The notes beneath the pieces are model-generated. The model was not told the origin of the DNA, searched no databases, and saw only the letters and a program-made list of their open reading frames with translations. Both the position numbers and the translations under genes were made by a program. Shown one piece after another: positions 1 through 60,362 of a stretch of DNA of 64,000 nt. The stretch spans positions 1-64,000 of the forward strand of contig NZ_PCPZ01000005.1 of assembly GCF_002979865.1 (NCBI RefSeq), written 5' to 3'. The DNA comes from Arthrobacter sp. MYb214. Lineage in GTDB: Bacteria; Actinomycetota; Actinomycetes; Actinomycetales; Micrococcaceae. Numbering within the stretch: position 1 is the first letter of the stretch; each line of letters starts with the position of its first letter.

Positions 1-24
1 CGGTGCTACCGCCAGGACCGATGG
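1..24 (+). promoter_or_regulatory. 3' end of a SAM riboswitch (cut by the window edge)
   Basis: Only the last 24 nt of the element are inside the window. They follow the 3' part of the complete SAM riboswitch at 6104..6187 almost base for base: GGTGCTAC, then GCCAG, then ACCGATGG, the last GATGG being the 3' strand of helix P1. The rest of the aptamer must lie upstream of base 1. The following monooxygenase start codon is only 18 nt away, so there is no room for a separate terminator hairpin; control of translation start or of an overlapping structure is the simplest inference. Confidence 0.7.
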
Positions 25-42
25 AAAGAATTGAGAACCCTG

Positions 43-1374
43 ATGCCTATTGGTGAATCGCACAATGCCCTCGGACTGGACTTCAACCAGCTCAGTGACC
101 CTTCGCAGGCCACCGCAATGGACCTGGACAAGTTTGAAGAACAGTTGCCGACTAGGCAATTGCTGAAAATTACCCCCGGACCAAGTGCGGATGAGCAATA
201 CGACCGGCTGGCGGAAATCTTCCGTCCCGTTTTTGCGCAGATCGCCGCAACCGCCAAGGACCGCGACTTGAACCGCGTGCTTCCTTTCGAGCAGGTAGGC
301 CTGCTGAATCGCGAGCGCTTCGGTGCGCTGCGCCTTTCCGTTGCCGACGGGGGCTACGGCGCACGGCTGGTGGATGTCTTCCGCCTGCTCATCGAGCTGT
401 CCGAGGCGGACTCCCACGTTGGCCAGCTGTGGCGTGCGCATATCGCATTCGTCGAGAACGTCTTGGCGCTGGACGACGAAGAGCTGCGCAAGAAGTGGGT
501 CGCTCGCATCGCTGCCGGGCAGATTATTGGCAACGCCTACACCGAACGCGGTGGCAACGCCCTGGGCACCTTGAACACCAAGGCCAGCACCGTGGACGGG
601 CGCTGGGTGATCGACGGTGAAAAGTACTACTGCACCGGCACCATTTTTGCCGACTGGACCACCGTTGCCGTGGCCCACCCGGAGCTCGCCGGCCGCCAGA
701 TCGCCGTGGTCTCCACCCAGCGCAGCGGCGTCAAGATCCTCGACGACTGGGATGGGTTCGGCCAGGGCCTCACCGGAACCGGCACCACCGAATTCCACCA
801 GGTCCCGGTGGATTGCTTCATGCCGCAGCAGACCAATGACTCCGAAGCGGCGATCTTCCAGCTGGTTCTCATGGCCGTGCAGGCGGGCATCGCCCGCGCC
901 GCATTGAACGACCTGCGTCACGCGGTGCAGGCGCGCACCCGCATCTTCACCACTGGAACCGGGGTGCCGGTATACCAGGAACCCCAGGTCCTCCAGCTGG
1001 TGGGCGAAGTTTCCGCGGAGTCCTTCGCTGCCGACTCCGTGGTGATCGGCGCAGTCCTTGAAGTTGAAGCCGCCCTGGGCGATCCGGGACTGAACGACGA
1101 GGAACGCTACGCCGTATGCGAGCTGGCCGCCAACCGCGCGCAAACCGTGGTGCAGCCACTGGCCATCGGCGTGACCAGCAAGCTCTTCGACGCACTGGGA
1201 GCCTCTTCCACCAGAAGCGGCTGCAACCTGGACCGGCATTGGCGCAATGCGCGCACCATCGCCACCCATAACCCGGCGATCTACAAGGCGCGCATCGTCG
1301 GGGACTACGAGATCAACGGGGTCCAGCCGCAGCGGCTGTCCGTCACCGGCGAAGATTCGACCCAGCGGGCCTGA
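43..1374 (+). CDS. SfnB/DszC-like flavin-dependent monooxygenase (acyl-CoA dehydrogenase fold), copy 1
   Basis: A 443-residue cytoplasmic protein of the acyl-CoA dehydrogenase superfamily. It carries the blocks typical of the SfnB/DszC branch: TERGGNALGT, FGQGLTGTGT and a C-terminal HWRNARTIATHNP. Members use reduced flavin and O2 to oxidise organosulfur compounds such as sulfones and thiophenes; the substrate here is unknown. It is homologous over its length to the protein at 8824..10041. The ATG at 43 is preferred because GAGAACCC just before it also precedes the start of the second copy; TTG 31 and ATG 118 are alternatives. It lies directly behind a SAM riboswitch remnant and 57 nt before a partner monooxygenase, so expression when sulfur amino acids are short is inferred. 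Confidence 0.8.
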   Translation: MPIGESHNALGLDFNQLSDPSQATAMDLDKFEEQLPTRQLLKITPGPSADEQYDRLAEIFRPVFAQIAATAKDRDLNRVLPFEQVGLLNRERFGALRLSVADGGYGARLVDVFRLLIELSEADSHVGQLWRAHIAFVENVLALDDEELRKKWVARIAAGQIIGNAYTERGGNALGTLNTKASTVDGRWVIDGEKYYCTGTIFADWTTVAVAHPELAGRQIAVVSTQRSGVKILDDWDGFGQGLTGTGTTEFHQVPVDCFMPQQTNDSEAAIFQLVLMAVQAGIARAALNDLRHAVQARTRIFTTGTGVPVYQEPQVLQLVGEVSAESFAADSVVIGAVLEVEAALGDPGLNDEERYAVCELAANRAQTVVQPLAIGVTSKLFDALGASSTRSGCNLDRHWRNARTIATHNPAIYKARIVGDYEINGVQPQRLSVTGEDSTQRA

Positions 1375-1431
1375 GGGCCTGCGACGCACACCAGCAACTT
1401 TCCACGATTACCAACCTATGGGGGCAAAGCC

Positions 1432-2835
1432 ATGAGCGAGAACAAGCGCGAGATCCTATTCAACGCATTCGACATGAACTGCGTGGTGCACCAGTCGCCG
1501 GGCCTGTGGCGCCATCCGCAGGACAAGGCCTCGACCTACAACACCCTGGGCTACTGGACGCACCTGGCCAAGGTGCTGGAAAAGGGGAAGTTCGACGGAC
1601 TGTTCCTCGCCGACGTGCTGGGCACCTACGACGTGTACAAGGGCACCAACGTCACCCCGCTGGGCTCCGGCGCCCAGGCACCGGTCAACGACCCGATGAT
1701 GCTGGTTTCCGCCATGGCCGCCGTGACCGAGAACCTCGGCTTCGGCGTCACCGCGGGCACCGCCTATGAGCACCCGTACGCTTTCGCCCGCCGCCTGGCC
1801 ACCCTGGACCACCTGACCAACGGCCGCGTGGGCTGGAACGTCGTCACCGGCTACCTGCCATCGGCGGCCCGCAATATGGGCCAGGAAGACCAGATGGAGC
1901 ACGACGAGCGCTACAACCACGCCGATGAGTACCTCGAGGTGGTCTACAAGCTGCTCGAAGGCTCGTGGGAAGACGACGCGGTGCAGAATGACAAGGCCAC
2001 CGGCGTCTACACCGACCCGGCCAAGGTGCACCCGATCGAGCACGAAGGCAAGTACTTCAAGGTTCCGGGCATCGCCATCACCGAGCCGTCCACCCAGCGC
2101 ACCCCGGTGATCTACCAGGCCGGCGCCTCCAAGCGCGGCACCGAGTTCGCCGCGTCGAACGCCGAAGCGATCTTCGTCAATTGCCCCACCCGCGACCTGC
2201 TGAAGGAAGCGGTCAGCAAGATCCGTGACGCTGCCGAGGCCGCCGGGCGTGGCCGCTACGACATCAAGGTCTTCGCCATGCAGACCATCATTACCGCCGA
2301 AACCACCGAACTGGCCCAGGCGAAGTTCCAGGACTACAGCTCCTACGTGGATATCGAGGGGTCGCTGGCACTGCTGTCCGGCTGGACCGGCATCGACATG
2401 TCCGTCTACGGCCCCGACGATGTCATCGGCGACGACGTGAAGTCCAACGCCATCCAGTCCTCGGTGGAAACCTTCAAGAAGGCCAGCGGCGATACCGGCA
2501 AGCCGTGGACCATCCGCCAGCTGGCCGAATGGATCGGCGTGGGCGGATTCGGCCCGGTCTCCGTCGGTTCCGGCGCCGAGGTAGCCGAGAAGCTCATCGA
2601 CTGGGTGGAGTACACCGACGTGGACGGCTTCAACCTCGCCTATGCTGTCACTCCGGGCACCTTCGAGGACATCGTCGAGTACGTGGTTCCCGAGCTGCAG
2701 GCGCGCGGGGTCTACAAGACCGAATACGCCGAGGGCTCGCTGCGCCACAAGCTGTTCGGCGAGGGAGACCGCGTGAAGGACACCCACCGCGCAGCCCAGT
2801 ACAAGATCGCCAACCGGATGGCTGCGCAGGCCTAG
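1432..2835 (+). CDS. NtaA/SnaA/DszA-family FMN-dependent monooxygenase, copy 1
   Basis: A 467-residue luciferase-like (LLM, TIM-barrel) monooxygenase of the NtaA/SnaA/DszA branch. Visible family features are the N-terminal SPGLWRHPQDK block, LDHLTNGRVGWNVVTGY, and TQRTPVIYQAGASKRG. Such enzymes take FMNH2 from a separate reductase and cleave C-S or C-N bonds or oxidise sulfones. The ATG at 1432 is preceded by a purine-rich GGGGGCAAAG. It follows the SfnB-like gene on the same strand and resembles the second pair at 8824..11462. No flavin reductase gene is beside it, so FMNH2 must come from elsewhere. Substrate is not deducible. Confidence 0.82.
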   Translation: MSENKREILFNAFDMNCVVHQSPGLWRHPQDKASTYNTLGYWTHLAKVLEKGKFDGLFLADVLGTYDVYKGTNVTPLGSGAQAPVNDPMMLVSAMAAVTENLGFGVTAGTAYEHPYAFARRLATLDHLTNGRVGWNVVTGYLPSAARNMGQEDQMEHDERYNHADEYLEVVYKLLEGSWEDDAVQNDKATGVYTDPAKVHPIEHEGKYFKVPGIAITEPSTQRTPVIYQAGASKRGTEFAASNAEAIFVNCPTRDLLKEAVSKIRDAAEAAGRGRYDIKVFAMQTIITAETTELAQAKFQDYSSYVDIEGSLALLSGWTGIDMSVYGPDDVIGDDVKSNAIQSSVETFKKASGDTGKPWTIRQLAEWIGVGGFGPVSVGSGAEVAEKLIDWVEYTDVDGFNLAYAVTPGTFEDIVEYVVPELQARGVYKTEYAEGSLRHKLFGEGDRVKDTHRAAQYKIANRMAAQA

Positions 2836-2859
2836 ACGCATAGCCTGATAGCGCAGCAA

Positions 2860-2903
2860 ATGGCGGCCCCGGCAACTTCGGAAGAAGTCGCCGGGGCCGC
2901 CAT
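2860..2903. terminator. Bidirectional terminator hairpin between two convergent genes
   Basis: ATGGCGGCCCCGGC and GCCGGGGCCGCCAT form a near-perfect long stem, extended by ACTT/AAGT around a short loop. It lies in the gap between the convergent monooxygenase gene and the gamma-glutamyltransferase gene and can serve both. Confidence 0.75.
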
Positions 2904-2915
2904 CTGCCTGCGGGC

Positions 2916-4739
2916 CTATTCGGTTGGCTTCAGCACCATGGCTGAACCGCCGCCGCGCCTCGTGGGCTCGGCCGCTGCGGTGAGCGTGCCATCGGCAGCG
3001 ATTTCCACCGCTTCAACCGCTCCGATTTCCGCCTGCGGAGTGAAGGAATCGCCAGCTGGCGTGAGCTTGTGGCCGAAGGCTTCGAGCGCGGAACCGTGGG
3101 CTTCGATAAACTCCGGTTCCGCGGTGACAGCGGCCGTATTGCGCTGGGAAGCACGCGGAGCGGCGATGGCTTCGCTGATGCTCATGCCCAGGTCGATGCG
3201 GTTCACCAGGGTCTGCAGAACCGTGGTGATGATGGTTGAACCGCCGGGGGAACCGATGGCCAGCACCGGATCGCCGTCCTGCAAGACAATGGTTGGAGCC
3301 ATCGAGGAACGTGGGCGCTTGCCAGGTTCAATGCGGTTCGGATCCTGCGGGTCGTACACCGTGGAGAAATCGGTCAGCTCGTTGTTCAGCAAGAATCCGC
3401 GATCGGGAACCACCATGCCCGAGCCACCGGTCTGTTCGATGGTCAAAGTGTAGGAAACGGCATTGCCCCAACGATCCACGACCGACAAATGGGTGGTGGA
3501 GATGTTTTCCGTATCCTGCTCTTCTACCGGTTCGCTGGTGGCAGCGGGGCATTGGCCATCATAGTTTTCAAGGTCGCCCGGAGCGACCGGCTTCGTTGCA
3601 GCCTGCTCCGGATCAATGGCGCAAGCACGATCCGTACCGAATAATTTGTCCGTCAGCGTCTGGGTCGGGACGTTGGTGAAAGCGGGGTCGCCGACGTACT
3701 TGCCGCGATCAGCGTAGGCGAGCGCAGTTGCCTCGAAATAATGATGCAAGGCATCGGGTGCTTCCATAGCTGGCAAATCGAACTCGCCCAGAATGTTCAG
3801 CGATTCGCCGATGGTCGTTCCGCCACTGGACGAAGGAGCCATGCCGAAGACGTCATAGCCCCGGTAGTCCACCTTAGTTGGTGCCTGCTCCACCACTTCG
3901 TAGCCGGCCAGGTCGGCAGTGCCCAGCTGCCCTGCGGGAACCGGGAGGGCGGTGTCTTCGCTCTTTGGCGGAGCCTGCACCGTTAGGGCGATTTCGGCAG
4001 CCAATTCGCCCTCATAGAATCCCTGGAGGCCTTGCTTGGCCAGCATCCGGTAGGTGTGTGCGAGATCCGGATTCTTGAAAATGCTCCCGACTTCCGGGGC
4101 ATCTCCGCCGGGCAAGAACAATTCGCTCGTGGAGGTGAACGCGGCGAATCGTTCCTTGTTATCCAGGGTCTGTTCACGGAACGTCTCATCAATGACAAAG
4201 CCGCGTGAAGCGATCTGGGTCGCCGGCCGCAGAACCTGTTTCAGGTTCTGCGAACCCCAATTATCCAGTGCGCGCTGCCACGTGGCCAAGGTCCCGGGCA
4301 CGCCCACGGACACGCCACTGGTGACCAGTTCCGGGGTGAAGTTATACGGCTCGCCGGTTTCAGGATCGATGAATGCATCATGCGCAATGCCTGCCGGTGC
4401 GGTTTCGCGGCCGTCGATGGTGCTGACCTTGCCCGACTTCGCATCGTAGTAGAGGAAGTATCCGCCACCGCCAATGCCTGCGCTATATGGTTCGGTGACG
4501 CCGAGTGCTGCTGCGGTTGCCACGGCCGCATCGACGGCGTTGCCTCCCTTGCGCAGGACTTCGATGCCGGCAGCGGTGGCCTCCGGGTCTACCGAAGAGA
4601 CAGCGCCACCAGTTCCGACAGCAGTCGGGTCCTTCTGGGTGTGTCGTGGTTCCGCGCTCGCCGGGAAGGCCGAGAAAGCTCCCAGGCACAAGGCGAGGGC
4701 TGCCGCGCAGGCAACTGACCTTAAACGTGCTCGTGACAT
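2916..4739 (-). CDS. ggt: Gamma-glutamyltransferase, exported
   Basis: A 607-residue N-terminal-nucleophile hydrolase that cleaves gamma-glutamyl bonds in glutathione and related peptides. An N-terminal signal peptide of about 29 residues points to export. The autoprocessing site is the TTH motif in NISTTHLSVVDRWGNAVS, with Thr415 as the predicted nucleophile and new N-terminus of the small subunit. The downstream GGSGM and PGGSTIITTVLQ blocks are typical of the small subunit. The ATG has a clear GAGGAG ribosome-binding site. Transcribed opposite to the preceding sulfur genes; release of cysteine-containing dipeptides would fit the sulfur theme of this region, but that link is inference. Confidence 0.92.
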   Translation of the reverse strand: MSRARLRSVACAAALALCLGAFSAFPASAEPRHTQKDPTAVGTGGAVSSVDPEATAAGIEVLRKGGNAVDAAVATAAALGVTEPYSAGIGGGGYFLYYDAKSGKVSTIDGRETAPAGIAHDAFIDPETGEPYNFTPELVTSGVSVGVPGTLATWQRALDNWGSQNLKQVLRPATQIASRGFVIDETFREQTLDNKERFAAFTSTSELFLPGGDAPEVGSIFKNPDLAHTYRMLAKQGLQGFYEGELAAEIALTVQAPPKSEDTALPVPAGQLGTADLAGYEVVEQAPTKVDYRGYDVFGMAPSSSGGTTIGESLNILGEFDLPAMEAPDALHHYFEATALAYADRGKYVGDPAFTNVPTQTLTDKLFGTDRACAIDPEQAATKPVAPGDLENYDGQCPAATSEPVEEQDTENISTTHLSVVDRWGNAVSYTLTIEQTGGSGMVVPDRGFLLNNELTDFSTVYDPQDPNRIEPGKRPRSSMAPTIVLQDGDPVLAIGSPGGSTIITTVLQTLVNRIDLGMSISEAIAAPRASQRNTAAVTAEPEFIEAHGSALEAFGHKLTPAGDSFTPQAEIGAVEAVEIAADGTLTAAAEPTRRGGGSAMVLKPTE

Positions 4740-4887
4740 ACTTTGATCTCCTCTGGAGGTGGGGATGAAGTATGCCCAAAATTACGGGAGCGGGAACTCG
4801 CCGCACGGTTGTGACACGCGGCACTATGGGTTTGCGCGGCAATTTCGCCCTGGTCGCACAAATATTCTTGGTTATGACGCTTTGAAG

Positions 4888-4935
4888 CAGCGGGCAGGCA
4901 CCACGGCCTCGATCGCCGCGAATGCCTGCCCGCTG
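4888..4935 (-). terminator. Hairpin downstream of the NmrA-like gene
   Basis: CAGCGGGCAGGCA and TGCCTGCCCGCTG are perfect 13-bp arms separated by 22 nt, just past the stop of the minus-strand gene at 4955..5818. The T-tract after it is weak, so termination activity is likely but not certain. Confidence 0.55.
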
Positions 4936-4954
4936 GAAACCGATTGCGAATGGG

Positions 4955-5818
4955 CTACTTGTTCAGGTTGTCCTTGATGACTTTGCCCAAGGAGGCTGGG
5001 GTCCGGCCGATCAGCTTGGCCAGCTCCCCGGAGTTCACCTCCAGCGCTCCTTCGCGAATGCGCACGTCGGTATCGACGAGGATATGCGCGAATGGTCCGG
5101 GGACTCCAGCATCAGCGTAGATCTTTTCCAGCTGTTCGGGATCCATTTCCTGGTAGGCGATGTCCTGGCCGGCGGCAGCGCCAACAGCGCCAGCAAGCTG
5201 GGCGAGGGTGAATGGCTTGTCGCTGCCCAGCTCGTAGATCCTGCCGTTCTGGTCCTCATCGGATAGCAGCACGGCCGCAGCGGCATCCGCATAATCGGCA
5301 CGGGCGGCAGCGCTGATTTTGCCCTCGCCCGCGGCACCGAGCACCATGCCGCTGTTGAGGTAGCCCATCAGCTGGTCGGTGTAGTTCTCGATGTACCACC
5401 CATTGCGCAACAGCACGTAGTCGATGCCGGATCCGGCAAGCAGGCGCTCGGTAGCGATGTGCTCGTCGGCGAGCTTCATGCCGCCGGTCAGGGCGTTGGC
5501 AATGGAGGTGTAGGCGATCAGCGGGACATCCACGTGCCTGGCGGCGCTGATGACGTTCTCATGCTGGGCAACGCGCTGGCCCACCTCGCTGGCCGAAATC
5601 AGCAGCAGCTTATCTACGCCTTCGAGTGCGGACACCAGAGTTGGCTGGGCGTTGTAATCGGCAACGCGGGTTTCCAAGCCCTTGCCCGCCAGCGGTTCCA
5701 GCTTCTGCTCGGAGCGGCCAATGGCAACCAGATCAGCTGCATTCGCCCCACGAGCCAGCAATGCGTCGATGACTAGATTTCCAAGCTGTCCGGTGGCACC
5801 GGTAATTGCGATCTTCAT
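4955..5818 (-). CDS. NmrA/QorB-like NAD(P)-binding SDR-family oxidoreductase
   Basis: A 287-residue atypical short-chain dehydrogenase. The Rossmann glycine motif GATGQLG is at residues 7-13, followed by a conserved arginine (IGRSEQK), typical of NADP-preferring NmrA/QorB quinone oxidoreductase-like proteins. The body contains VDKLLLISASE and YTSIANA, matching the QorB-type layout, and lacks a classic YxxxK catalytic pair, as is usual for this group. Monocistronic, minus strand, divergent from the riboswitch-controlled metNIQ operon. It may reduce quinones or act as a redox-sensing regulator; the substrate is not clear. Confidence 0.8.
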   Translation of the reverse strand: MKIAITGATGQLGNLVIDALLARGANAADLVAIGRSEQKLEPLAGKGLETRVADYNAQPTLVSALEGVDKLLLISASEVGQRVAQHENVISAARHVDVPLIAYTSIANALTGGMKLADEHIATERLLAGSGIDYVLLRNGWYIENYTDQLMGYLNSGMVLGAAGEGKISAAARADYADAAAAVLLSDEDQNGRIYELGSDKPFTLAQLAGAVGAAAGQDIAYQEMDPEQLEKIYADAGVPGPFAHILVDTDVRIREGALEVNSGELAKLIGRTPASLGKVIKDNLNK

Positions 5819-6103
5819 GAGGTCCTCTCGTTGGTCTGCAATCCACTACAACCATCGAAGGCATCGCCGAATTCCCCACCCATGATTGCTGGGGGCAAGC
5901 CAGCGAGCGGGGCAGAACTCCAAAGGTTCCGTCATAGAAGGGAAAAGTAGCGAAATATGTCAGATTGCTACGTGGATTATTGCGTGATTTCAGCGTGGAT
6001 CCGTCCGGACTATGACTTGATGACGCCGATTGAAGTAACGTTTGCCGGCCTGCGGGCGTGGACTCCAGACTTGAATTGTTCGGCTCGTACAACCGAACGC
6101 ACA

Positions 6104-6187
6104 CCATCCAGAGCGACTGAGAGATCTGGCTCAACGACGTCGCAGCAACCACCCGAGAGGGAGCGGTGCTACAGCCAGAACCGATGG
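6104..6187 (+). promoter_or_regulatory. SAM riboswitch (SAM-I / SAM-I-IV-variant clan) upstream of metNIQ
   Basis: The 84-nt element has P1 CCATC/GATGG (6104-6108/6183-6187) and P2 GCGAC/GTCGC (6113-6117/6139-6143) followed by the conserved CAGCAACC. A small P3 CCC/GGG and the conserved GGTGCTA come next. TCTGGCT (6125-6131) is complementary to AGCCAGA (6173-6179). The layout AGAG...P2...GCAACC...GGTGCTA is the S-box signature; no P4 hairpin is visible, so the compact SAM-I/IV variant is the better fit. SAM binding would turn off the transporter operon. The rest of the gap from 5819 to 6103 shows no gene; the promoter was not pinned down. Confidence 0.88.
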
Positions 6188-6195
6188 AGTACTTT

Positions 6196-6243
6196 CACTT
6201 CGCGACGGAAAATCTGTGGAACGCAGATGATTTTCGCGAAGTG
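6196..6243 (+). promoter_or_regulatory. Strong hairpin after the riboswitch, candidate expression platform
   Basis: CACTTCGCG (6196-6204) pairs perfectly with CGCGAAGTG (6235-6243), and inside it GAAAATCTG (6208-6216) pairs with CAGAT-ATTTTC with one bulge. The hairpin starts 8 nt after the aptamer and ends 30 nt before the metN start. It has no T-tract behind it, so it is not an obvious intrinsic terminator; it may be a Rho- or ribosome-access-type switch. Confidence 0.6.
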
Positions 6244-6273
6244 CGCTCCGCATAACCAAGCACCAAGGGAGCG

Positions 6274-7080
6274 ATGATGATTCGTCTTGAAAACGTAACG
6301 ACCGCCTTCGGCAAGGGCCAAGATCAATTCACGGCCGTCAAGGATGTCTCGCTGGAAATCCAGGCCGGAACCATCCATGGAATTATCGGATTTTCCGGTG
6401 CGGGAAAGTCAACGCTATTGCGCAATATCAATTTGCTGCAGCGTCCCACGTCGGGCCAGGTCATCGTGGATGGCGTCGAACTGACCGGGCTCAGTGAAGG
6501 AGACCTGCGAAAGCAGCGTCATGAGATCGGGATGATCTTCCAGCACTTCAACCTGCTGAACAATCGCACCGCGCAACAGAACGTCGAGCTGAATCTGAAG
6601 TTCGCTGGTGTTCCGAAAAAGCAACGCCGTGAACGTGCGCTGGAAGCGCTGTCCATAGTGGACCTCGCTGACAAGGCTGCCGCCTATCCAGGACAGCTTT
6701 CGGGCGGCCAGAAACAGCGCATCGCCATTGCCCGCGCGCTGGTCACCGAGCCCAAGGTCCTGCTGTGCGATGAGCCAACCAGTGCCGTGGATCCTAGAAC
6801 GACAACGTCGGTGCTGCAATACCTCAGTGACATCAACGCCAGCCTTGGCATCACCACAGTCATCGTCACCCACGAGATGAACGTTATTAAGGCCATTGCC
6901 GACAAGGTTTCGGTCATGGAAGACGGAGCGGTAGTTGAAGAGTTCGCCCTGAGTTCGTTGCGAGAACCAGGCTTTGAACCAGTGACGCCAATCGGCCGCT
7001 ACCTGATCAGTGACGAACTCACGCTTAACCGCCAGCCAAAGCAGGACCAAGCCGTCGCTGCCACCGTAGCCCGCGTATAG
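6274..7080 (+). CDS. metN: Methionine ABC transporter ATP-binding protein MetN (short form)
   Basis: A 268-residue ABC ATPase that energises uptake of methionine or related sulfur compounds. Walker A GFSGAGKST is at residues 39-47, the signature LSGGQKQR starts at residue 142, and Walker B ends at Asp166-Glu167 (LLCDEPTSAVD). The sequence matches MetN up to the region FEPVTPIGRYLI, but the protein then ends. The usual C-terminal NIL regulatory domain found in approximately 340-residue MetN proteins is missing. GGGAG precedes the start; the tandem ATGs at 6274 and 6277 are equivalent choices. First gene of metN-metI-metQ behind the SAM riboswitch. Confidence 0.92.
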   Translation: MMIRLENVTTAFGKGQDQFTAVKDVSLEIQAGTIHGIIGFSGAGKSTLLRNINLLQRPTSGQVIVDGVELTGLSEGDLRKQRHEIGMIFQHFNLLNNRTAQQNVELNLKFAGVPKKQRRERALEALSIVDLADKAAAYPGQLSGGQKQRIAIARALVTEPKVLLCDEPTSAVDPRTTTSVLQYLSDINASLGITTVIVTHEMNVIKAIADKVSVMEDGAVVEEFALSSLREPGFEPVTPIGRYLISDELTLNRQPKQDQAVAATVARV

Positions 7081-7096
7081 AGAACCTGGATTACCA

Positions 7097-7813
7097 ATGA
7101 ATTTCACGTCAGTAGTGCTAGCCACGAGCAACGGCAACGCAGCAGCTTTCAGTTTTGACCGCATCATCGAACTTGCCCCGGAAATCTGGGTCGCCATGGC
7201 GCAGACCTTTGCGATGCTGCTGGTTTCCATCCCGATCGCGATTCTCCTGGGAACCCCGCTGGGCATTTGGCTTTACTCGATGTCTCCCAACGGTTTGCGC
7301 CCACGTCCGCGACTGCACCGAATCGTTGACGGGCTGGTCAATACAATCCGTTCCTTCCCATTCCTCATCCTGCTGATCGCCATCATCCCGTTCACCCGAT
7401 TCGTTGTGGGAACTACCATTGGCACCGCGGCGGTTATCGTTCCGCTGACCATCAACGCGATCCCCTATTTCGCCCGGTTCGTGGAGCAGAACATCAGCCA
7501 ACTTGGCAATGGCGTTGTCGAAGCAGCGCAGGCCATGGGCGCCACACGGGGACAGATCATCCGTGAAGTGCTGCTGATCGAAGCCAAGCCTGCACTGCTG
7601 TCTTCCATCACCATCATGACCGTCAGCTTCATCTCGTATTCGGCCATGGCCGGACTGGTCGGCGGAGGCGGTATCGGCGACTTCGCAATCCGCTACGGCT
7701 ACTACCGCTATGAAACCGGAGTCATGCTGCTAGCCATCGTGTTGATGATCCTGCTGGTGCATGCAGTTCAGTTCGTCGGAACTCGGCTATCGCGCGCCGC
7801 TGACAAGCGCTAA
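7097..7813 (+). CDS. metI: Methionine ABC transporter permease MetI
   Basis: A 238-residue inner-membrane permease with five to six hydrophobic segments. The EAA loop is recognisable in EAAQAMGATRGQIIREVLL, which contacts MetN. VNTIRSFPFLILLIAIIPFTR and SAMAGLVGGGGIGDFAIRYG are characteristic MetI blocks. It starts 16 nt after metN and is followed 43 nt later by metQ, forming one operon under the SAM riboswitch. Function is methionine uptake by family knowledge; D-methionine, methionine sulfoxide or other organosulfur ligands cannot be excluded. Confidence 0.93.
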   Translation: MNFTSVVLATSNGNAAAFSFDRIIELAPEIWVAMAQTFAMLLVSIPIAILLGTPLGIWLYSMSPNGLRPRPRLHRIVDGLVNTIRSFPFLILLIAIIPFTRFVVGTTIGTAAVIVPLTINAIPYFARFVEQNISQLGNGVVEAAQAMGATRGQIIREVLLIEAKPALLSSITIMTVSFISYSAMAGLVGGGGIGDFAIRYGYYRYETGVMLLAIVLMILLVHAVQFVGTRLSRAADKR

Positions 7814-7856
7814 ACACAAAACCCGCTCAACTCGCATTTCAGCAAAGGACAACACC

Positions 7857-8729
7857 ATGGCATTCTCTCGCCGCACCTTCTTAACTTTCACCGCCGGCTC
7901 CGCCGCACTCCTCGCGCTGGCTTCTTGCGGCCTGGCAGGTGGACAGGCCGCCGGCACCGGTGACAAGACCATCAAGGTTATTGTCACCGAATCGGCCCCA
8001 TCGCAGGAACCAACCAAAATCGCACAGAAGCTGCTGGCCGAAAAGGGCTGGACTCTGGAGGCTACCTATGTCACCGACATCGTGCAGCCGAACCACGTGG
8101 TGTCCAATGGCGAATACGATGCCAACTTCTTCCAGCACGGCGCTTACCTGGAACAGTTCAAGAAGGATCAGAACGTCGACGTGGAGCCGGCCTTCTACAT
8201 GTACAGCTCGCCTGCCGGCGTGTACTCGAAGAAATACGACGACATCAAGGACCTGCCCAACGGTGCGACCATCGCACTGCCTGTGGATACCGCCAACAAC
8301 GGACGCGCGCTGGCCCTGTTGGATAAGGCCGGTGTCCTGAAGGTAGCTGAGGGCAAGAGCGTGATTCACTTGTCGCAGAACGACATCCTGGAGAACCCCA
8401 AGGGCTTCAAGTTCGTTGAGGTAGATCAGCAGTCGCTCTCAAAGACCCTGCCTGACGTGGATGCCGGGTTCCTTTTCGCCCGGCTCGGCGCCGAGATCGG
8501 ACTGAACCCGAAGGACGCACTGCTCTTTGAAGAGGAAGAAGAAGCGCTCCCGTACATCAACATCATCGGCGCAAAGCCAGGGTTTACGGACACCGAAAAG
8601 GGCAAGGCGCTGGAAGAGGCCTACCACTCCGATGAGGTGCGCGAATGGTACGCGAGCTACCTCGACGGTGCGTTGGGCACTCCTTGGGACCGCGATCTCG
8701 AAGCGGACTTCGCCACCTGGAATAAGTAG
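7857..8729 (+). CDS. metQ: Methionine-binding lipoprotein MetQ
   Basis: A 290-residue substrate-binding lipoprotein of the NlpA/MetQ family. A twin-arginine-like start (SRRTFLTF) leads into a hydrophobic stretch and the lipobox ALASC, so it is lipid-anchored outside the membrane. VTESAPSQEPTKIAQ, YVTDIVQPNHVVSNGEYDANFFQHGAYLEQF and LDGALGTPWDRD are typical blocks. The ATG at 7857 is chosen because it gives a proper signal peptide and has AAAGGA upstream; longer open frames overlap metI. Last gene of the transporter operon, followed by a strong terminator. Confidence 0.93.
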   Translation: MAFSRRTFLTFTAGSAALLALASCGLAGGQAAGTGDKTIKVIVTESAPSQEPTKIAQKLLAEKGWTLEATYVTDIVQPNHVVSNGEYDANFFQHGAYLEQFKKDQNVDVEPAFYMYSSPAGVYSKKYDDIKDLPNGATIALPVDTANNGRALALLDKAGVLKVAEGKSVIHLSQNDILENPKGFKFVEVDQQSLSKTLPDVDAGFLFARLGAEIGLNPKDALLFEEEEEALPYINIIGAKPGFTDTEKGKALEEAYHSDEVREWYASYLDGALGTPWDRDLEADFATWNK

Positions 8730-8735
8730 GCCCTT

Positions 8736-8770
8736 GGCCCCACGACGCTGAACTTCGGCGTTGTGGGGCT
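8736..8770 (+). terminator. Terminator after metQ
   Basis: GGCCCCACGACGC and GCGTTGTGGGGCT form a long stem with one G-T pair and a short loop, starting 6 nt after the metQ stop, with a T-rich stretch (ATTTTC) a few bases later. It separates the transporter operon from the second monooxygenase pair, at least partly. Confidence 0.8.
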
Positions 8771-8823
8771 CCACATTTTCCGACTCCTTTACTCAAAGTA
8801 TCGACGTTCTGCAGGGAGAACCC

Positions 8824-10041
8824 ATGACGATGATCGCCGCGCCCGCAATCGAAAGCCGCTACCAGGAACTTCTGGAGCGATTCCAAGCGGTCTTTGCCAG
8901 AATTGCTGAAGGAAGCTGTGAACGCGAGCAGCAGCGCATCCTGCCGTTCGAGCAGGTGCAGTGGCTCAAGGATGCCGGTTTCACCACGCTGCGTGTGCCA
9001 GAAAGCCATGGCGGTTCGCCTATCAGCCACGAGCATCTGTTCCGCTTGCTGATCGAGCTGGCCGCGGCGGACTCGAATGTAGCGCACCTGCTGCGCAGCC
9101 ACTTCTCCTTCGTCGAAACCATCTCCCTGCAGCCGGCAGAGTTCCAGGACCGCTGGTTCCCGCGGGTGCTTGCCGGGGAAATCTTCGGCAACGCCGCGAC
9201 CGAGCGTGGCGGCAATGCCCTTGGCACCACCAATACCAAGCTGGTCCAGACCGGGCAAGGCTGGGTGCTGCGCGGCGAGAAGTACTACACCACTGGCTCG
9301 ATCTTCGCCGATTGGGTAGTGGTCATGGCGACCACCGACGGGATTGAGGGGCGCCAATACGCCATCGTCGATCGCCATGCCGAGGGCGTGGAGATCCTTG
9401 ACGACTGGGATGGCTTCGGCCAGCCGCTGACCGGTACCGGCACCGCGATATTCACTGACGTTGCGGTGGAAGAAGCCAATATCATTCAGCGCAAGATAGC
9501 TTCCACCCTCGAACCTGCCTTCTTCCAGCTGTGCCTGCTCGCCGTACTGGCAGGTATCGGCAAGGGGGCCCGCAATGCCGCAGCAGGCATCGTTGCCAAC
9601 CGCACGCGAACCTTCAACACCGGCTCCGGCGCGCTGTTCAAGGATGACGCGCAGATCCAGGAACTTGTCGGCCGTTTGGCGGCCAATGTCTTCGCTGCAG
9701 AGAGCATCGTGGTCACCGCAGCCCGGGAACTGGATTCGGCGCTCGACGAGGATCTGGGCTTGGACCCGCAAGCGGCCTACCTGCGCGCAGAGCTTGCCGT
9801 CCAGCAAGCCCACGTGGCCACGCCGAAGCTGGTCCTGGACGCCACCAGCGAGCTCTTCGACGTCACCGGGGCCTCGGCGATTTCGACCTCCAAGTCGCTG
9901 GACCGCTTCTGGCGCAATGCCCGCACGGTGGCCACCCACAATCCGGTGGCCTTCAAGGCACGCTCGGTGGGGGACTACTTCATCAACGGCACCATTCCTA
10001 CTGGTTTGAACTCGATCGGCGAAGCAAAGGCAGGAAAATAA
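8824..10041 (+). CDS. SfnB/DszC-like flavin-dependent monooxygenase (acyl-CoA dehydrogenase fold), copy 2
   Basis: A 405-residue paralogue of the enzyme at 43..1374, sharing the order of motifs: LPFEQVQWLKDAGF, TERGGNALGTTNTK, FGQPLTGTGT and FWRNARTVATHNPVAFKARSVGDY. By family it oxidises an organosulfur substrate with reduced flavin. The ATG at 8824 has CAGGGAGAACCC directly in front. It stops 2 nt before the next gene, so the two are cotranscribed. It sits 94 nt behind metQ, after a terminator; read-through or an own promoter would be needed. No riboswitch is visible in this gap. Confidence 0.85.
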   Translation: MTMIAAPAIESRYQELLERFQAVFARIAEGSCEREQQRILPFEQVQWLKDAGFTTLRVPESHGGSPISHEHLFRLLIELAAADSNVAHLLRSHFSFVETISLQPAEFQDRWFPRVLAGEIFGNAATERGGNALGTTNTKLVQTGQGWVLRGEKYYTTGSIFADWVVVMATTDGIEGRQYAIVDRHAEGVEILDDWDGFGQPLTGTGTAIFTDVAVEEANIIQRKIASTLEPAFFQLCLLAVLAGIGKGARNAAAGIVANRTRTFNTGSGALFKDDAQIQELVGRLAANVFAAESIVVTAARELDSALDEDLGLDPQAAYLRAELAVQQAHVATPKLVLDATSELFDVTGASAISTSKSLDRFWRNARTVATHNPVAFKARSVGDYFINGTIPTGLNSIGEAKAGK

Positions 10042-10043
10042 TC

Positions 10044-11462
10044 ATGGGTACTTTCAACGAACGCCCGCGCTTGCTGCTTTCGGCCTTCTTGATGAACACC
10101 TCCAGCCACATCCTTGGCGGAATGTGGCGCCACCCCGAAGCGCAGCAGCATCGGTTCCATGAACTGGGCCTATGGGTTGACCTGGCCAAGAAGCTGGAAG
10201 AGGCAAAGTTCGATTCGCTGTTCTTCGCTGACGTGGTTGGCCTTTACGGCGAGCATGAGGGTGGTTGGGCATCGCACGTACGAAAGGGACTGCAGGTCCC
10301 CAGCCATGATCCGCTGGTCCTGCTTTCGGCATTGGCCGCCAGCACCAAGGACATCGGCCTGGCGATGACCAGCTCGGTCATCCAATCCCATCCATTCCAG
10401 TTTGCCCGGCAGATCTCCACCCTGGATCATCTCTCGCAGGGGCGTGTGGCCTGGAATATCGTCACCAGCGTACTGGAAAATGCGCACCGCAATTTCGGCG
10501 GGAAAGAACTGGTCGGGCATGATGACCGCTACGGTTGGGCCGAAGAATACGTGGACGCCGCCTACAAGCTGTGGGAGGGCTCCTGGGAAGAGGATGCCTT
10601 GCTGGCCGACAAGATTTCCGGAATCTACGCAGATCCGGCCAAGGTCAACAAAATCAACCACCGCGGCGACTACTACTCCATTGACGGTCCGCACCTGGCA
10701 CTGCCAAGTGCCCAGCGCACCCCGTTCCTGTTCCAGGCGGGTTCGTCGGCACGCGGTTCGCAGTTCGCGGCCACTCACGCCGAGGCGACCTTCCTCTTTG
10801 CCCCGCACGCACAGTACGTGGCGAAGAAGAATGCCCAGCTGATCGAGCACCTGGCTGCTGCCGGACGCGGCCGCGATGACATCAAGGTCTTTGCCGGCTT
10901 GTCCTTCCTCGTTGGTTCCACCGAAGCTGAAGCCAAGGCATTGGAAGCTGAATACGACGAGTACCTGGACTTGGACGCCATCATCGCGCACATCGGCGGC
11001 GGTATCGGAGTGGATCTGGGCGGACTGGACCTGGATACCCCGATCGGCCAGATCCAGACCGAGGGTGCGCAGGGAGTACTTGAAGCAGCCCGGGCTTCGG
11101 TGCCCGGCGGCAATCCGACCCTGCGCGACTTGGCCTACTACCGCGCCAAGGCACAGCAGATTTCGGGGACCCCGGAACAAATTGTCAATGAGCTCGAACG
11201 CTGGCAGGATGCTGGTATCGATGGCCTGAACGTGATGAATCATGTTCTTCCCGGCTCCTACGACAACTTCATTGACGGAGTGCTGCCCGAACTGCGCCGC
11301 CGTGGCCTGGCCCAAAGTGGATATGCAGAGGGCAGCCTGCGCCAGAAGGTCTTTGGCCGTGGCGATTACCTGCCCGCGCATCATCCGGCGGCGAAGCACC
11401 GCGGGGCGTTCTCGCAGAACAGCGCGGCAGCCACTGGGAAAGCGGTTCAGCTGCAGCAGTGA
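10044..11462 (+). CDS. NtaA/SnaA/DszA-family FMN-dependent monooxygenase, copy 2
   Basis: A 472-residue luciferase-like monooxygenase. MNTSSHILGGMWRHPE, LDHLSQGRVAWNIVTS and SAQRTPFLFQAGSSARGSQFAATHAE identify the NtaA/SnaA/DszA branch. It is homologous to 1432..2835 but differs in several blocks, suggesting a different substrate. The start follows the stop of the SfnB-like gene by 2 nt, which indicates translational coupling. Together with the upstream gene and metNIQ it forms a likely uptake-and-desulfurisation module. No partner flavin reductase is present. Confidence 0.85.
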   Translation: MGTFNERPRLLLSAFLMNTSSHILGGMWRHPEAQQHRFHELGLWVDLAKKLEEAKFDSLFFADVVGLYGEHEGGWASHVRKGLQVPSHDPLVLLSALAASTKDIGLAMTSSVIQSHPFQFARQISTLDHLSQGRVAWNIVTSVLENAHRNFGGKELVGHDDRYGWAEEYVDAAYKLWEGSWEEDALLADKISGIYADPAKVNKINHRGDYYSIDGPHLALPSAQRTPFLFQAGSSARGSQFAATHAEATFLFAPHAQYVAKKNAQLIEHLAAAGRGRDDIKVFAGLSFLVGSTEAEAKALEAEYDEYLDLDAIIAHIGGGIGVDLGGLDLDTPIGQIQTEGAQGVLEAARASVPGGNPTLRDLAYYRAKAQQISGTPEQIVNELERWQDAGIDGLNVMNHVLPGSYDNFIDGVLPELRRRGLAQSGYAEGSLRQKVFGRGDYLPAHHPAAKHRGAFSQNSAAATGKAVQLQQ

Positions 11463-11566
11463 ATTCCGAACGCTTGGAAGGCCAGCGGTGTGAGCGGTTC
11501 CTGCCAATTGGACGTACTTCAGTACCTGGACGCCAAAAGTGCCAGCAACGCGGTATGGTGTCGTGC

Positions 11567-11983
11567 ATGGACACGCAGCACGTAAATAATTCGGCAACAA
11601 TCCGCAGGCTGTTGAGCACGCCTGGACGCTGGGCGGTTGTCGGGCTGACCAACAACCCAGCTCGCGTAGCTCCGTCCATCGCCCGTTTCCTGCGTGATGA
11701 ACTGTCGATGCAGATTATTCCCGTGTCGTTAGGCGCGGAAATTGTAATGGGCGAACCGGGCTTCGCGAAGCTTGCTGGCATTCCAGGCCCCATTGACGTG
11801 GTGGATTGCTTCGTGAACTCTTCCAAGGTGGGAGACATCGTTGACCAAGCCATTGCCGTAGGAGCGCAGGCGGTGTGGTTGCAGCTGGGCGTCATTGACG
11901 AAGCTGCCGCCCGACGGGCCAAGGATGCGGGACTGGACGTAGTAATGGATACCTGCCCCAAGATCGAGTACCCATTTCGCTAG
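11567..11983 (+). CDS. CoA-binding (Rossmann-like) domain protein, YccU type
   Basis: A 138-residue protein consisting of one CoA-binding domain, as in YccU-like stand-alone proteins. Diagnostic parts are GRWAVVGLTNNPAR near the N-terminus, VDVVDCFVN-like IDVVDCFVN in the middle and the C-terminal DAGLDVVMDTCPKIEY. The ATG at 11567 is preferred: a TATGGT box ends 7 nt before it, suggesting a leaderless mRNA, and it begins just before the conserved domain. Family members bind CoA or acyl-CoA; their biological role is not settled. Followed 10 nt later by a MmcQ/YjbR-like gene. Confidence 0.8.
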   Translation: MDTQHVNNSATIRRLLSTPGRWAVVGLTNNPARVAPSIARFLRDELSMQIIPVSLGAEIVMGEPGFAKLAGIPGPIDVVDCFVNSSKVGDIVDQAIAVGAQAVWLQLGVIDEAAARRAKDAGLDVVMDTCPKIEYPFR

Positions 11984-21890: not shown

Positions 21891-22961
21891 TTGACCTTGC
21901 AGCCAGTGCCACGATTCGGCTCCGCTCCCTTCGCCCTGTCGGTTCACACCGGAGGCGGACCCGGTGTAGGGCAAACCGCCCAAGATGGCCTGCAGGACAC
22001 CATCGATATCGCCAAGGCTGCGGATCAATCCGGATATCACCGTTTCTGGATGTCCGAGCACCATGCCATGCCCGCGCTGTCCGTCGCATCGCCGCTGCTG
22101 ATGATGGCCCGGCTCACCGCCGACACCCAGCGGATCAGGTTGGGCGCGGGCGGAGTGATGCTGCCTAACCATGCGCCGCTGGTGGTCGCGGAGCAGATCG
22201 GCATGCTCGAAGCGCTGGCTCCGGGGCGCATCGACCTGGGAGTCGGGCGCGCGCCAGGAACCGATGGGGCCACCGCGGCCGCGTTGCGCCGCGGAACCGG
22301 AGCCAACGAAACCTTCGACGAGCAACTGGCCGAGCTGGTGGGATTCCTGAATGATGATTTCCCCGCAGGGCACCCCTACAGCGAAGTCCATGCAGTGCCC
22401 GGCCCGTGGCAGAACGAGCAGAACCGCCTGCCCGCACCGGAAACGCAGACCCCGTTGTGGATCCTGGGCTCCTCGCCGTATTCGGCGCAGCTGGCCGCGC
22501 GGCTGGGCCGGCCCTACGCCTTCGCCTTGCAGTTCGGCGATGCCGATATCGACACCGCGCTGCGCATCTACCGCGAGAACTTCGTGCCTTCGGCAGTGCT
22601 CGACCGTCCGTACGTGCTCATCAGCCAAAGCGTCATCGCGGCCGAGGATCCAGAATACGCCCGTGCCGAGGCCTCGACCATGGCGATGGCCATGCTGCGG
22701 ATGTTCAAGCGTGAACCCTTTGCACTGCTATCCGCCCAGGAGGTCGCAGGATATCCGGCCACGCTCAATGAGCGAGCGATCATTGACATGTACACCAACC
22801 GCACCCTGGCCGGCACGCCTTCCGAAGTGGCCCAGCGCCTGGAAGCGCTGCAGCAGTGGACTGGAGCGGATGAGTTGATGATGGTCCTTGGCAGCCACAC
22901 CCCTGGCGCAGCGGTGCAAACCGTGCAGCTCATGGCCCAGCACTACCGGCCGGCTAAATAA
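21891..22961 (+). CDS. LLM-class flavin-dependent oxidoreductase, MsnO8-like
   Basis: A 356-residue single-subunit luciferase-like monooxygenase. YHRFWMSEHHAMPALSVASP, RIRLGAGGVMLPNHAPL and EQIGMLEALAPGRIDLGVGRAPGTD are typical of the MsnO8-like group. It would use reduced FMN or F420; the substrate is unknown. The start is a TTG at 21891 with AAAAGAGA before it; no ATG gives a better N-terminus. Followed 60 nt later by an isochorismatase-like hydrolase, and divergent from a CGNR regulator. Confidence 0.85.
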   Translation: MTLQPVPRFGSAPFALSVHTGGGPGVGQTAQDGLQDTIDIAKAADQSGYHRFWMSEHHAMPALSVASPLLMMARLTADTQRIRLGAGGVMLPNHAPLVVAEQIGMLEALAPGRIDLGVGRAPGTDGATAAALRRGTGANETFDEQLAELVGFLNDDFPAGHPYSEVHAVPGPWQNEQNRLPAPETQTPLWILGSSPYSAQLAARLGRPYAFALQFGDADIDTALRIYRENFVPSAVLDRPYVLISQSVIAAEDPEYARAEASTMAMAMLRMFKREPFALLSAQEVAGYPATLNERAIIDMYTNRTLAGTPSEVAQRLEALQQWTGADELMMVLGSHTPGAAVQTVQLMAQHYRPAK

Positions 22962-25866: not shown

Positions 25867-26910
25867 TTAGCTCTCGGCAAGCATTTCGCGCACCAACGGG
25901 ATGACCTTCTCGCCGTAGAGTTCCACTGCACGCAGGCGGGCGCTGGCTTCTACTGCGCCGCCCGAGTAGATCAAATCGAAACGGCCGATATCCAAGGTCT
26001 TGATGGTCTTGGCGATCTTGCGCGCCACGGTTTCCGGAGAGCCCACGTACAGCGATCCTTCGCTGATTTCGTGCTCGAATTCGCCGCGGCTCATTGGGCT
26101 CCAGCCACGGGACGCACCAATGCGGTCACGCTGTTCCTTGTAGGCGTCGAACATGTGCTCGCGGGCCAACTCGTCGGTATCTGCCACGAAGCCGGGGGAG
26201 TGCAGGCCCACCGGCAGGGTTGGGTGGCCGAACTGGTCGTTGGCCCGGCGGTACAGGTCGATGTAGGGTGCGAAGCGCTCGGGGGACCCGCCGATGACAG
26301 CGAGCATCATGCGCAATCCGTAGTGCGCCGTGCGGATGACCGACTGCGGGGAGCCGCCCACGCCCACCCAGGTGTTCAGGCGGCCGGACTCGGTCTTCGG
26401 GAAGACTTCCATATCCTCCAGCGGTGCACGCTTGGTTCCCTGCCAGGTCACCGGCTTCTCGTCGAGCAGCTTGTGGAAAAGGTCGATCTTCTCGTCGAAA
26501 AGCAGTTCGTAGTCAGCCATGTCATGGCCGAACAACGGGAAGGACTCGGTAAAGGAGCCGCGGCCCAGCATGACCTCGGCACGTCCGTTGGACAAGGCAT
26601 CTACGGTGGCGAAACGCTGGAAGACGCGGACCGGATCGTCGGAAGACAGCACGGTCACGCCGGATCCGAGGCGGATCCGCTCGGTCGCCGTGGCAATGCC
26701 CGCCAGAACGGTCTCGGGGCTGGAGATGGCGTATTCGGGGCGGTGGTGCTCGCCGACAGCGATCACATCGACGCCGGCCTGATCGGCCGCGATGGCTTCC
26801 TGGACCGTGGCGCGGATGCCCTGGGCATGGGTTACCAGCTTGCCTGACTTGTCGCTGGGTACGTCGCCAAAGGTGTCGAGGCCGAATTCGATGTTCTCGA
26901 AGGCGTTCAT
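25867..26910 (-). CDS. LLM-class flavin- or F420-dependent oxidoreductase
   Basis: A 347-residue luciferase-like protein: [64 protein letters not shown] and [18 protein letters not shown]. The C-terminal AESVARK-like [20 protein letters not shown] is typical. It is first in a two-gene unit with an F420/NADP reductase-like protein. The ATG has AGGGAG upstream. Two 12-bp palindromes overlap its predicted promoter, so repression by a MarR-type regulator is likely, though no such gene is next to it. Substrate unknown. Confidence 0.85.
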
Positions 26911-60130: not shown

Positions 60131-60164
60131 GTGGACTCCATTCGGCTTGCGTAAGAAAGTAAAA

Positions 60165-60252
60165 GACCCCTCATGCACCTGCCAGAGCCCATCTACCCTT
60201 GCTACCTTCCGGTCCTGGGGGAGTTCAACAGGATGACACCACACGAGGGGTC
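60165..60252 (-). ncRNA. ffs: Small (4.5S-type) signal recognition particle RNA
   Basis: On the minus strand the 88-nt gene begins GACCCCTCGTG and ends CATGAGGGGTC, whose ends pair as the base of the hairpin. The universally conserved Ffh-binding loop is present as CCAGGACCGGAAGGTAGCAA. A TAGTAT -10 box (60260-60265) ends 7 nt before the predicted 5' end, and TTTTACTTTCTT follows the 3' end as a terminator-like tract. The RNA pairs with Ffh to target membrane proteins. It lies 34 nt upstream of gluQRS. Confidence 0.95.
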
Positions 60253-60362
60253 ACCAAAAATACTACCCGAGGTTGGCGCTTGGATGAAAATCGGCAGGCG
60301 TGCGCTTGCTCTCAGCTTGCAAATCATGGCTCAGAGATCTTGACCAAAAATGCTGTTCGTCC

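Follow-up and report, generated by a model that had tools for sequence, protein, structure and literature searches.

Why should S-adenosylmethionine (SAM) riboswitches stand ahead of flavin monooxygenases as well as a methionine-type importer? This question is raised by the left end of the stretch analysed here (the window), which covers 64 kb from base 1 of contig C15 in Arthrobacter sp. MYb214 (source assembly of 3.72 Mb in 19 contigs). This end carries two pairs of SfnB/DszC-like and NtaA/DmoA-like flavin monooxygenase genes together with metNIQ-like genes. Comparison with related genomes leads us to consider it likely that these genes belong, as two operons, to a SAM-riboswitch regulon that scavenges organic sulfur, which would be repressed by SAM and would feed sulfur to MetY and methionine.

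Two riboswitch-led units

The two units consist of the following features, given with their scores (nt, nucleotides; FMN, flavin mononucleotide; CoA, coenzyme A).

1-27 (+): 3' end of a SAM-I riboswitch split between contigs; its 5' half terminates contig C18 (locus L009, 1-53, -)
43-1374 (+): SfnB_A, SfnB/DszC-like flavin monooxygenase of the acyl-CoA dehydrogenase fold family (TIGR04022 254.5 bits, cut-off 430.9); predicted start 18 nt behind P1
1432-2835 (+): LLM_A, NtaA/DmoA-family FMN-dependent monooxygenase (TIGR03860 542.9 bits, cut-off 279.7)
6101-6190 (+): complete SAM-I riboswitch aptamer (RF00162 61.2 bits)
6274-7080 (+): MetN-like ATPase without NIL domain (NCBIfam 298.7 bits, cut-off 499.7)
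7097-7813 (+): MetI-like permease (NF008049 192.1 bits, cut-off 212)
7857-8729 (+): MetQ-like lipoprotein with altered ligand site (PF03180; start predicted from the lipoprotein signal)
8830-10041 (+): SfnB_B, SfnB/DszC-like flavin monooxygenase (TIGR04022 301.6 bits, cut-off 430.9)
10044-11462 (+): LLM_B, NtaA/DmoA-family FMN-dependent monooxygenase (TIGR03860 482.5 bits, cut-off 279.7)
11459-11983 (+): CoA-binding-domain protein, final gene of the metNIQ unit (PF13380; true start probably within the frame)

In the window, Rfam finds a single SAM riboswitch, located at 6101-6190 (+) (RF00162; E 9.5e-12; 61.2 bits, gathering score 44.4), which bears out the first-pass annotation of this DNA in placing a complete riboswitch ahead of the transporter. 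The same annotation placed a remnant of the same type ahead of the first pair. Positions 1-27 are indeed a real 3' end, aligning to the final 27 positions of an aptamer model as a 5'-truncated match (24.5 bits, E 1.9e-5), but the element was cut by the assembly and is not degenerate. A decayed riboswitch is ruled out because the contig breaks at base 1 and the matching 5' half ends contig C18, whose last 53 nt match on the opposite strand (59.3 bits, 3'-truncated). The intact counterpart is present in the close relatives G008 and G001, as one of two back-to-back riboswitches ~270 bp apart, one pointing toward ssuBAC and the other toward SfnB_A. A consensus of the two 3' ends, derived from the very sites on which it was scored, matches only those two sites in the window (0 expected from 100 shuffles).

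The metN-I-Q-like genes (6274-8729) run on into SfnB_B-LLM_B with gaps of 16, 43, 100 and 2 nt. The earlier description of two pairs flanking the transporter thus stands only in part: the second pair extends the metNIQ operon, but the first is separated from it by two minus-strand genes.

2916-4739 (-): gamma-glutamyltransferase, between both units (TIGR00066 442.1 bits)
4955-5818 (-): NmrA/NAD(P)-binding protein, a neighbour (PF13460, PF05368)

These two genes rule out a single operon over 1-11462 and therefore leave two riboswitch-led units. We treat the gamma-glutamyltransferase as a neighbour of the units rather than a proven member.

The proposed regulon in the genome, genus and family

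RF00162 matches the source genome six times at E<=0.001, with five matches above the Rfam cut-off, plus the split element. Counting the split copy and a 43.0-bit match just below the cut-off, which precedes SfnB_C1, the genome holds seven SAM riboswitches, leading the following units (ABC, ATP-binding cassette).

C12: sulfhydrylase-like gene and cystathionine gamma-synthase gene
C18: metY and CoA-binding gene
C18: ssuBAC and acetate-CoA ligase
C18/C15 (split): SfnB_A-LLM_A
C15: metNIQ-SfnB_B-LLM_B
C14: sugar-type ABC importer and LLM_C
C14: SfnB_C1-SfnB_C2

The genome has four strong SfnB-like genes (252-301 bits; next best 106), and all of them lie in riboswitch operons, as do three of the seven NtaA/DmoA genes above cut-off. 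The chance of such placement is ~2e-9 and 1e-5, respectively, on the assumption of 3,400 independent genes, an independence that paralogues do not have. The identity of MetY is well supported (TIGR01326 599.7 bits, cut-off 495.1). The acetate-CoA ligase behind ssuBAC (L009 3245-5209) scores above the TIGR02188 cut-off and may recycle acetate released by MetY; such a ligase also stands directly behind a SAM riboswitch in L087, L088, L107 and L110, from other genera.

SAM riboswitches are present in all 18 Glutamicibacter genomes compared, the source genome included (116 matches, 110 above the Rfam cut-off). The genes behind all 116 were labelled by similarity to source-genome proteins, and at least 44 of the riboswitches, across the 18 genomes, directly lead oxidase operons. 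The targets are distributed as follows.

metY-CoA-binding: 18
sulfhydrylase/synthase pair: 17
SfnB_A: 17, of which 16 with LLM_A
SfnB_C1-C2: 12
ssu: 11
Dpp-type ABC importer: 9 (2 show SfnB_B within the fetched stretch; 7 end at its edge and are counted as without oxidases)
metNIQ-SfnB_B-LLM_B-CoA-binding: 8
acetate-CoA ligase as first label: 7
second metNIQ-like set: 6
sugar-type ABC importer with LLM_C: 5
metNIQ alone: 1
no labelled gene: 5

Once the split copy of the source genome is added, SfnB_A lies behind a riboswitch in 18/18 genomes. The SfnB_B-LLM_B pair recurs with a metNIQ-type importer in some species and a Dpp-type importer in others. A CoA-binding gene follows metY in every one of the 18 genomes; separately, a small CoA_binding_2 (PF13380) protein ends both the LLM_B operon (11459-11983) and the metY operon (L009 14152-14646). 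One riboswitch-led Dpp-type binding protein (L044 11670-13301) reaches 353.6 bits with TIGR04028 (cut-off 468.5), a family of unknown ligand, and in L067, L072 and L074 (G007, G014, G015) the start of the riboswitch-led gene is, by eye, presumably that of a MetE-type methionine synthase, whose reading frame was placed in L067.

For a wider view, SfnB relatives were gathered in a named scan, which retained 80 loci, 37 from Micrococcales and 43 proteobacterial. These were searched with a riboswitch model built from 30 Glutamicibacter aptamers, among which 3 of 19 predicted pairs are changed on both sides and most are invariant. Among the Micrococcales loci, 29 of 37 hold a riboswitch, and in 27 it is both upstream and on the same strand. 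As a control, the 43 proteobacterial loci gave none with this model at E<=0.01 (the single weaker match has E 0.067). Rfam, applied to 33 of the 37, reports RF00162 in 24, and L109 is matched by the Glutamicibacter-trained model alone. In Arthrobacter sp. 131MFCol6.1 and Pseudarthrobacter sp. H3Y2-7, one riboswitch is followed by metN-metI-LLM_B-metQ-SfnB_B.

An even draw from the family gave, among the matches listed, a close SfnB_B relative in 93/149 genomes and 23/32 genera. The SfnB operon is preceded by a same-strand riboswitch in 19 of the 22 other genera sampled, each represented by one locus picked by hand among the matches listed and not always the best hit; L265 is counted as positive despite ~1.5 kb of unlabelled sequence between riboswitch and SfnB_B. 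Outside this count stand L276, whose operon is cut at the edge and shows no riboswitch, and L277, which has one. Rfam reports RF00162 in 10 of the 12 genus loci to which it was applied. The named and family samples are not independent because they overlap in species, and some named loci are Glutamicibacter.

A sample drawn in the reverse direction points the same way. Among 40 hand-picked loci from 8 genomes of four other families, chosen only for carrying a SAM riboswitch, 13 have an SfnB/LLM gene on the same strand within ~5.7 kb downstream. This count leaves out three weak LLM similarities (25-27%) and L303, L311 and L314, which end at <500 bases. MetY lies immediately ahead of an LLM gene in L287, L296, L305 and L310 (the L287 LLM, at 256.7 bits, is under the family cut-off of 279.7), and L300 has a riboswitch-led MetQ-MetN-MetI-SfnB-SfnB order.

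Chance neighbourhood of riboswitch and oxidases is ruled out by this conservation in genus and family together with the probability estimate. The first-pass proposal that the SAM regulon extends to sulfur-scavenging oxidases gains support from the comparison, in which gene order is conserved far above chance. The conserved neighbours agree with it, as the genes co-regulated with these riboswitch-led oxidases include a sulfonate-type importer and MetY.

Riboswitches of the SAM-IV class (RF00634) also occur near these oxidase genes, at L274 1321-1434 (+), L255 9245-9369 (+), L087 11274-11385 (+) and L097 7242-7366 (+); the one in L274 ends ~37 nt ahead of an LLM_A match. The largest number of SAM riboswitch matches in the order sample, 13, is found in G231 (family f14; 4.9 Mb).

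The importer and its ligand

The source genome encodes two MetQ proteins, the window copy and one of housekeeping type (C1:1009111). The NIL domain is present in the housekeeping MetN and absent from the window MetN, and the genome scan gives no riboswitch match at the housekeeping metNIQ. Two of the seven methionine-contacting residues are changed in the window MetQ (Y81 to I and N213 to F) and the other five are kept; direct alignments to solved MetQs agree with the residue changes. Because a second metNIQ with NIL exists, the window MetN lacks this domain and the MetQ site is changed, the window transporter is probably a specialised paralogue and not the housekeeping methionine importer. 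The NCBIfam cut-offs do not discriminate between the two, because the housekeeping MetN (335.1/499.7) misses as do the window MetN (298.7/499.7), MetI (192.1/212) and MetQ (135.6/228.85).

Window-type MetQ is found in 9/18 genomes of the genus. In its relatives from Arthrobacter, Pseudarthrobacter and Nesterenkonia, V or F takes the place of N213, and N238 is replaced by I, M, L or C. A third type, MetQ2, found in six riboswitch-led sets of the genus, has R156 replaced by Q, N213 by Y and N238 by S. One line of riboswitch-linked MetQ has thus lost N213 (and N238 outside Glutamicibacter), and the other has lost R156, N213 and N238 together. MetN also lacks NIL in L085 and in L059, a MetQ2-type set. 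In Pantoea, Erwinia and related genera, MetQ2-type sets share a 13 kb locus with LLM_A-/SfnB-like genes (6 of the 43 proteobacterial loci); one of these six, L151, has no labelled LLM. The Nesterenkonia operons L101, L106 and L111 carry tandem MetQ-like genes with differing ligand-site residues ahead of SfnB_B.

These changes make it likely, as far as residues can tell, that the window MetQ binds a ligand other than plain methionine. The first-pass annotation had suggested that the ligand may not be methionine alone, which fits the changed pocket and the loss of NIL, although N238 is kept. Its narrower suggestion of an oxidised methionine finds no specific support, and since a residue holding the alpha-amino and alpha-carboxyl groups is lost, a plain alpha-amino acid is weakly disfavoured. 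The arginine of the ligand site is retained, so the ligand is perhaps an anion.

The metNIQ operon might instead encode a standard methionine importer controlled by a standard S-box, with the adjoining oxidases being passengers or acting on unrelated substrates. A metNIQ under a SAM riboswitch is the textbook arrangement, five of the seven methionine residues remain, and in G003 a window-type metNIQ stands behind a riboswitch with no oxidase labelled after it. We regard this reading as unlikely given the separate riboswitch-free metNIQ that has NIL and all three polar anchors. In addition, SfnB_A-LLM_A is riboswitch-led without metNIQ in 18/18 genomes, the importer of SfnB_B-LLM_B is replaced by a Dpp-type in other species, and LLM_B lies between metI and metQ in L085 and L086.

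Returning to an organosulfur-scavenging regulon, the comparisons suggest the following working model. With ample SAM, each leader's SAM-I aptamer would close and the operon would be off; when SAM is low, the riboswitches would open, and importers and oxidases would be produced. The SfnB/DszC-like and NtaA/DmoA-like monooxygenases would then oxygenate an imported organosulfur compound and cleave its C-S bond, with reduced FMN (FMNH2) supplied by a reductase encoded elsewhere. In Nesterenkonia, this partner could be a flavin reductase (PF01613), whose gene comes first after a divergent SAM riboswitch at two loci (L100 187-780, -; L106 1564-2175, -). The released sulfite or thiol would pass to homocysteine or methionine via MetY, which has its own SAM riboswitch, restoring SAM. 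Because sulfur or thiol would go via MetY straight to methionine, SAM would be the logical end-product signal.

More tentatively, and with somewhat less than even confidence, this model may be widened. In Micrococcaceae and allied families of actinobacteria, organosulfur scavenging might be under the master control of SAM riboswitches instead of protein regulators, the riboswitch-linked MetQs might have been re-purposed from methionine to ligands without the standard alpha-amino acid head, and the sulfur or thiol might reach methionine via MetY. A SAM-riboswitch regulon of this kind would mean that SAM, and not cysteine or sulfate status, prompts a large lineage from soil and cheese rind to forage for organic sulfur. 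It would give testable roles to many genes whose annotation goes no further than SfnB family, NtaA/SnaA/DszA family or methionine transporter. It would also caution that annotations of riboswitch-linked metNIQ may carry the wrong ligand name.

Oxidases, leaders and known systems

Both LLM_A and LLM_B score above the NtaA/DmoA subfamily cut-off (TIGR03860, 279.7 bits). The nearest solved relative of LLM_A is DmoA (6ak1, 553.6 bits), and DmoA is also nearest to LLM_C. The best solved relatives of SfnB_A are BdsC/DszC and MsuC, and the SfnB-like genes overall are nearest DszC/MsuC; the two window genes are labelled no more than SfnB-like because 254.5 and 301.6 bits miss the equivalog cut-off of 430.9. 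In the model, LLM_A and LLM_B would carry out FMNH2-dependent oxygenation of an organosulfur compound.

LLM_B is the member on which a different substrate could be argued. Its closest solved relatives are HcbA1, a hexachlorobenzene dehalogenase (6lr1, 482.8 bits), and the alkane monooxygenase LadA (397.9), the latter narrowly above DmoA (396.2), so the oxidases could act on a carbon or xenobiotic compound such as an alkane or halogenated aromatic, the SAM link being incidental. We consider this very improbable, given that LLM_A and LLM_C are nearest DmoA, that the partners resemble DszC and MsuC, and that the co-regulated genes of clear function serve sulfonate uptake and methionine synthesis, the acetate-CoA ligase excepted.

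A sulfur substrate of another kind, an S-alkylcysteine or glutathione conjugate, would imply a cysteine salvage resembling that of CmoO/CmoJ with the gamma-glutamyltransferase as first step. That enzyme adjoins LLM_A at 14 of 17 other Glutamicibacter loci, Dpp-type importers substitute for metNIQ in some species, and CmoJ is related to this LLM family according to the part of the source consulted (PMC10863075). However, the LLM matches to YtnJ (222.7-236.4 bits) are well under those to DmoA, LadA and HcbA1, the gamma-glutamyltransferase (2916-4739) is on the opposite strand without a riboswitch of its own, and MetQ has lost one amino-acid anchor. No N-acetyltransferase or deacetylase appears among the labelled or scanned genes, for which no dedicated search was made. 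Such salvage is, in our judgement, quite unlikely.

The leaders bear on how the operons would be controlled. SfnB_A starts 8-21 nt behind P1 in 22 scored leaders, ssuB 7-15 nt behind it in six scored leaders and one Nesterenkonia metN 10 nt behind it; in six window-type metN leaders, the distance is 86-88 nt. As SfnB_A starts too near P1 for a terminator, control would be exerted at translation. A minimum free energy (MFE) fold offers one further element.

6243-6273 (+): possible hairpin over the metN ribosome site (GCGCTCC ... GGGAGCG)

Its arms CGCTCC and GGAGCG are invariant in 8/8 leaders, which are themselves ~90% identical. We infer the SAM response and its direction from the known behaviour of the SAM-I RNA family, by which SAM would repress these operons.

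Several observations weigh against the scavenging model. In a two-state energy calculation over 88 leaders with P1 closed, access to the ribosome site was lower in 24, higher in 19 and little changed in 45; this set excludes leaders without an exact CCATC/GATGG P1 or in-frame start, AcsA-first leaders and duplicates. Neither window unit contains a flavin reductase, and LLM_B is closest to a dehalogenase and LadA rather than to a sulfur enzyme. The five of seven methionine residues retained by the window MetQ include N238, the housekeeping MetQ keeps the equivalents of R156, N213 and N238 (three polar anchors) with H100 to T as its sole change, and in L300, from another family, the riboswitch-linked MetN keeps NIL. 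No riboswitch was found in the fetched stretch of 8 of the 37 Micrococcales loci (Microbacterium, Rothia, Brevibacterium, one Kocuria and one Curtobacterium), and in two Sinomonas loci the riboswitch points away from the oxidase genes. Among the 22 genera, L257 has a divergent riboswitch only, and L262 and L273 have none. Lastly, the proteobacterial control covers the Glutamicibacter-trained model alone, with no other SAM classes and no Rfam run.

The components of this regulon are already known, and it is the regulon that is new; among the matches listed in open-licence full texts, no paper was found that joins SAM riboswitches with SfnB/NtaA-type oxidases. The aptamer class is that of the SAM-I/S-box regulon (RF00162), which also leads metY, metB-like and metNIQ-like genes, whereas the targets here extend to flavin monooxygenases and to importers of the sulfonate, sugar and Dpp types, and a terminator would not fit in many of the leaders. 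Another actinobacterial system for organic sulfur, the ssu/seu sulfonate genes of Corynebacterium glutamicum, likewise combines paired flavin monooxygenases with a sulfonate importer, but is controlled by the protein regulators SsuR, CysR and McbR, and to our knowledge by no riboswitch. The sfn, msu and dsz systems (SfnB, SfnG, MsuC, DszC/DszA) similarly direct a DszC-type and a luciferase-type monooxygenase at organosulfur compounds, although the window genes miss the SfnB and DszC equivalog cut-offs and none of the 43 proteobacterial relatives showed a riboswitch. The likeness to the dimethyl-sulfide monooxygenase DmoA is one of sequence, holding for LLM_A and LLM_C with LLM_B nearer HcbA1. 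The importer shares families and gene set with MetNIQ, but here lacks NIL, has two of seven ligand residues replaced and shares its operon with oxidases.

The nearest precedent is in Pelagibacter, where SAM-II and SAM-V riboswitches (bhmT, mmuM, metY) steer organosulfur into methionine, metY included, and where the acquisition genes are reported as constitutive, as far as the consulted part of that account goes (PMC5069961). Aptamer classes and targets differ there, whereas here importers and oxidases are themselves riboswitch-led. The main text of a 2013 RNA-regulon survey, in the portion available to us, names no monooxygenases, sulfonates or Arthrobacter (PMC3766115). In Brevibacterium on cheese, expression of seuA, metY and metNIQ drops jointly (PMC6706770), and a study of Rhodococcus desulfurization places MetQ, MetN, MetY, SsuD and NtaA-type proteins in one sulfur-protein table (PMC8557817); the passages seen of these two accounts do not mention a riboswitch. 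Extracts from two further reports describe an attenuator that precedes an ABC operon for sulfonate and is not termed a SAM riboswitch (PMC2965389), and a B12 riboswitch only (PMC4991794).

Elsewhere in the window, luciferase-like oxidoreductases are also encoded at 21891-22961 (+) and 25867-26910 (-), scoring above the cut-offs of TIGR03558 and TIGR03858, with no SAM riboswitch in the Rfam scan, and a bacterial small signal recognition particle (SRP) RNA lies at 60159-60255 (-) (65.1 bits).

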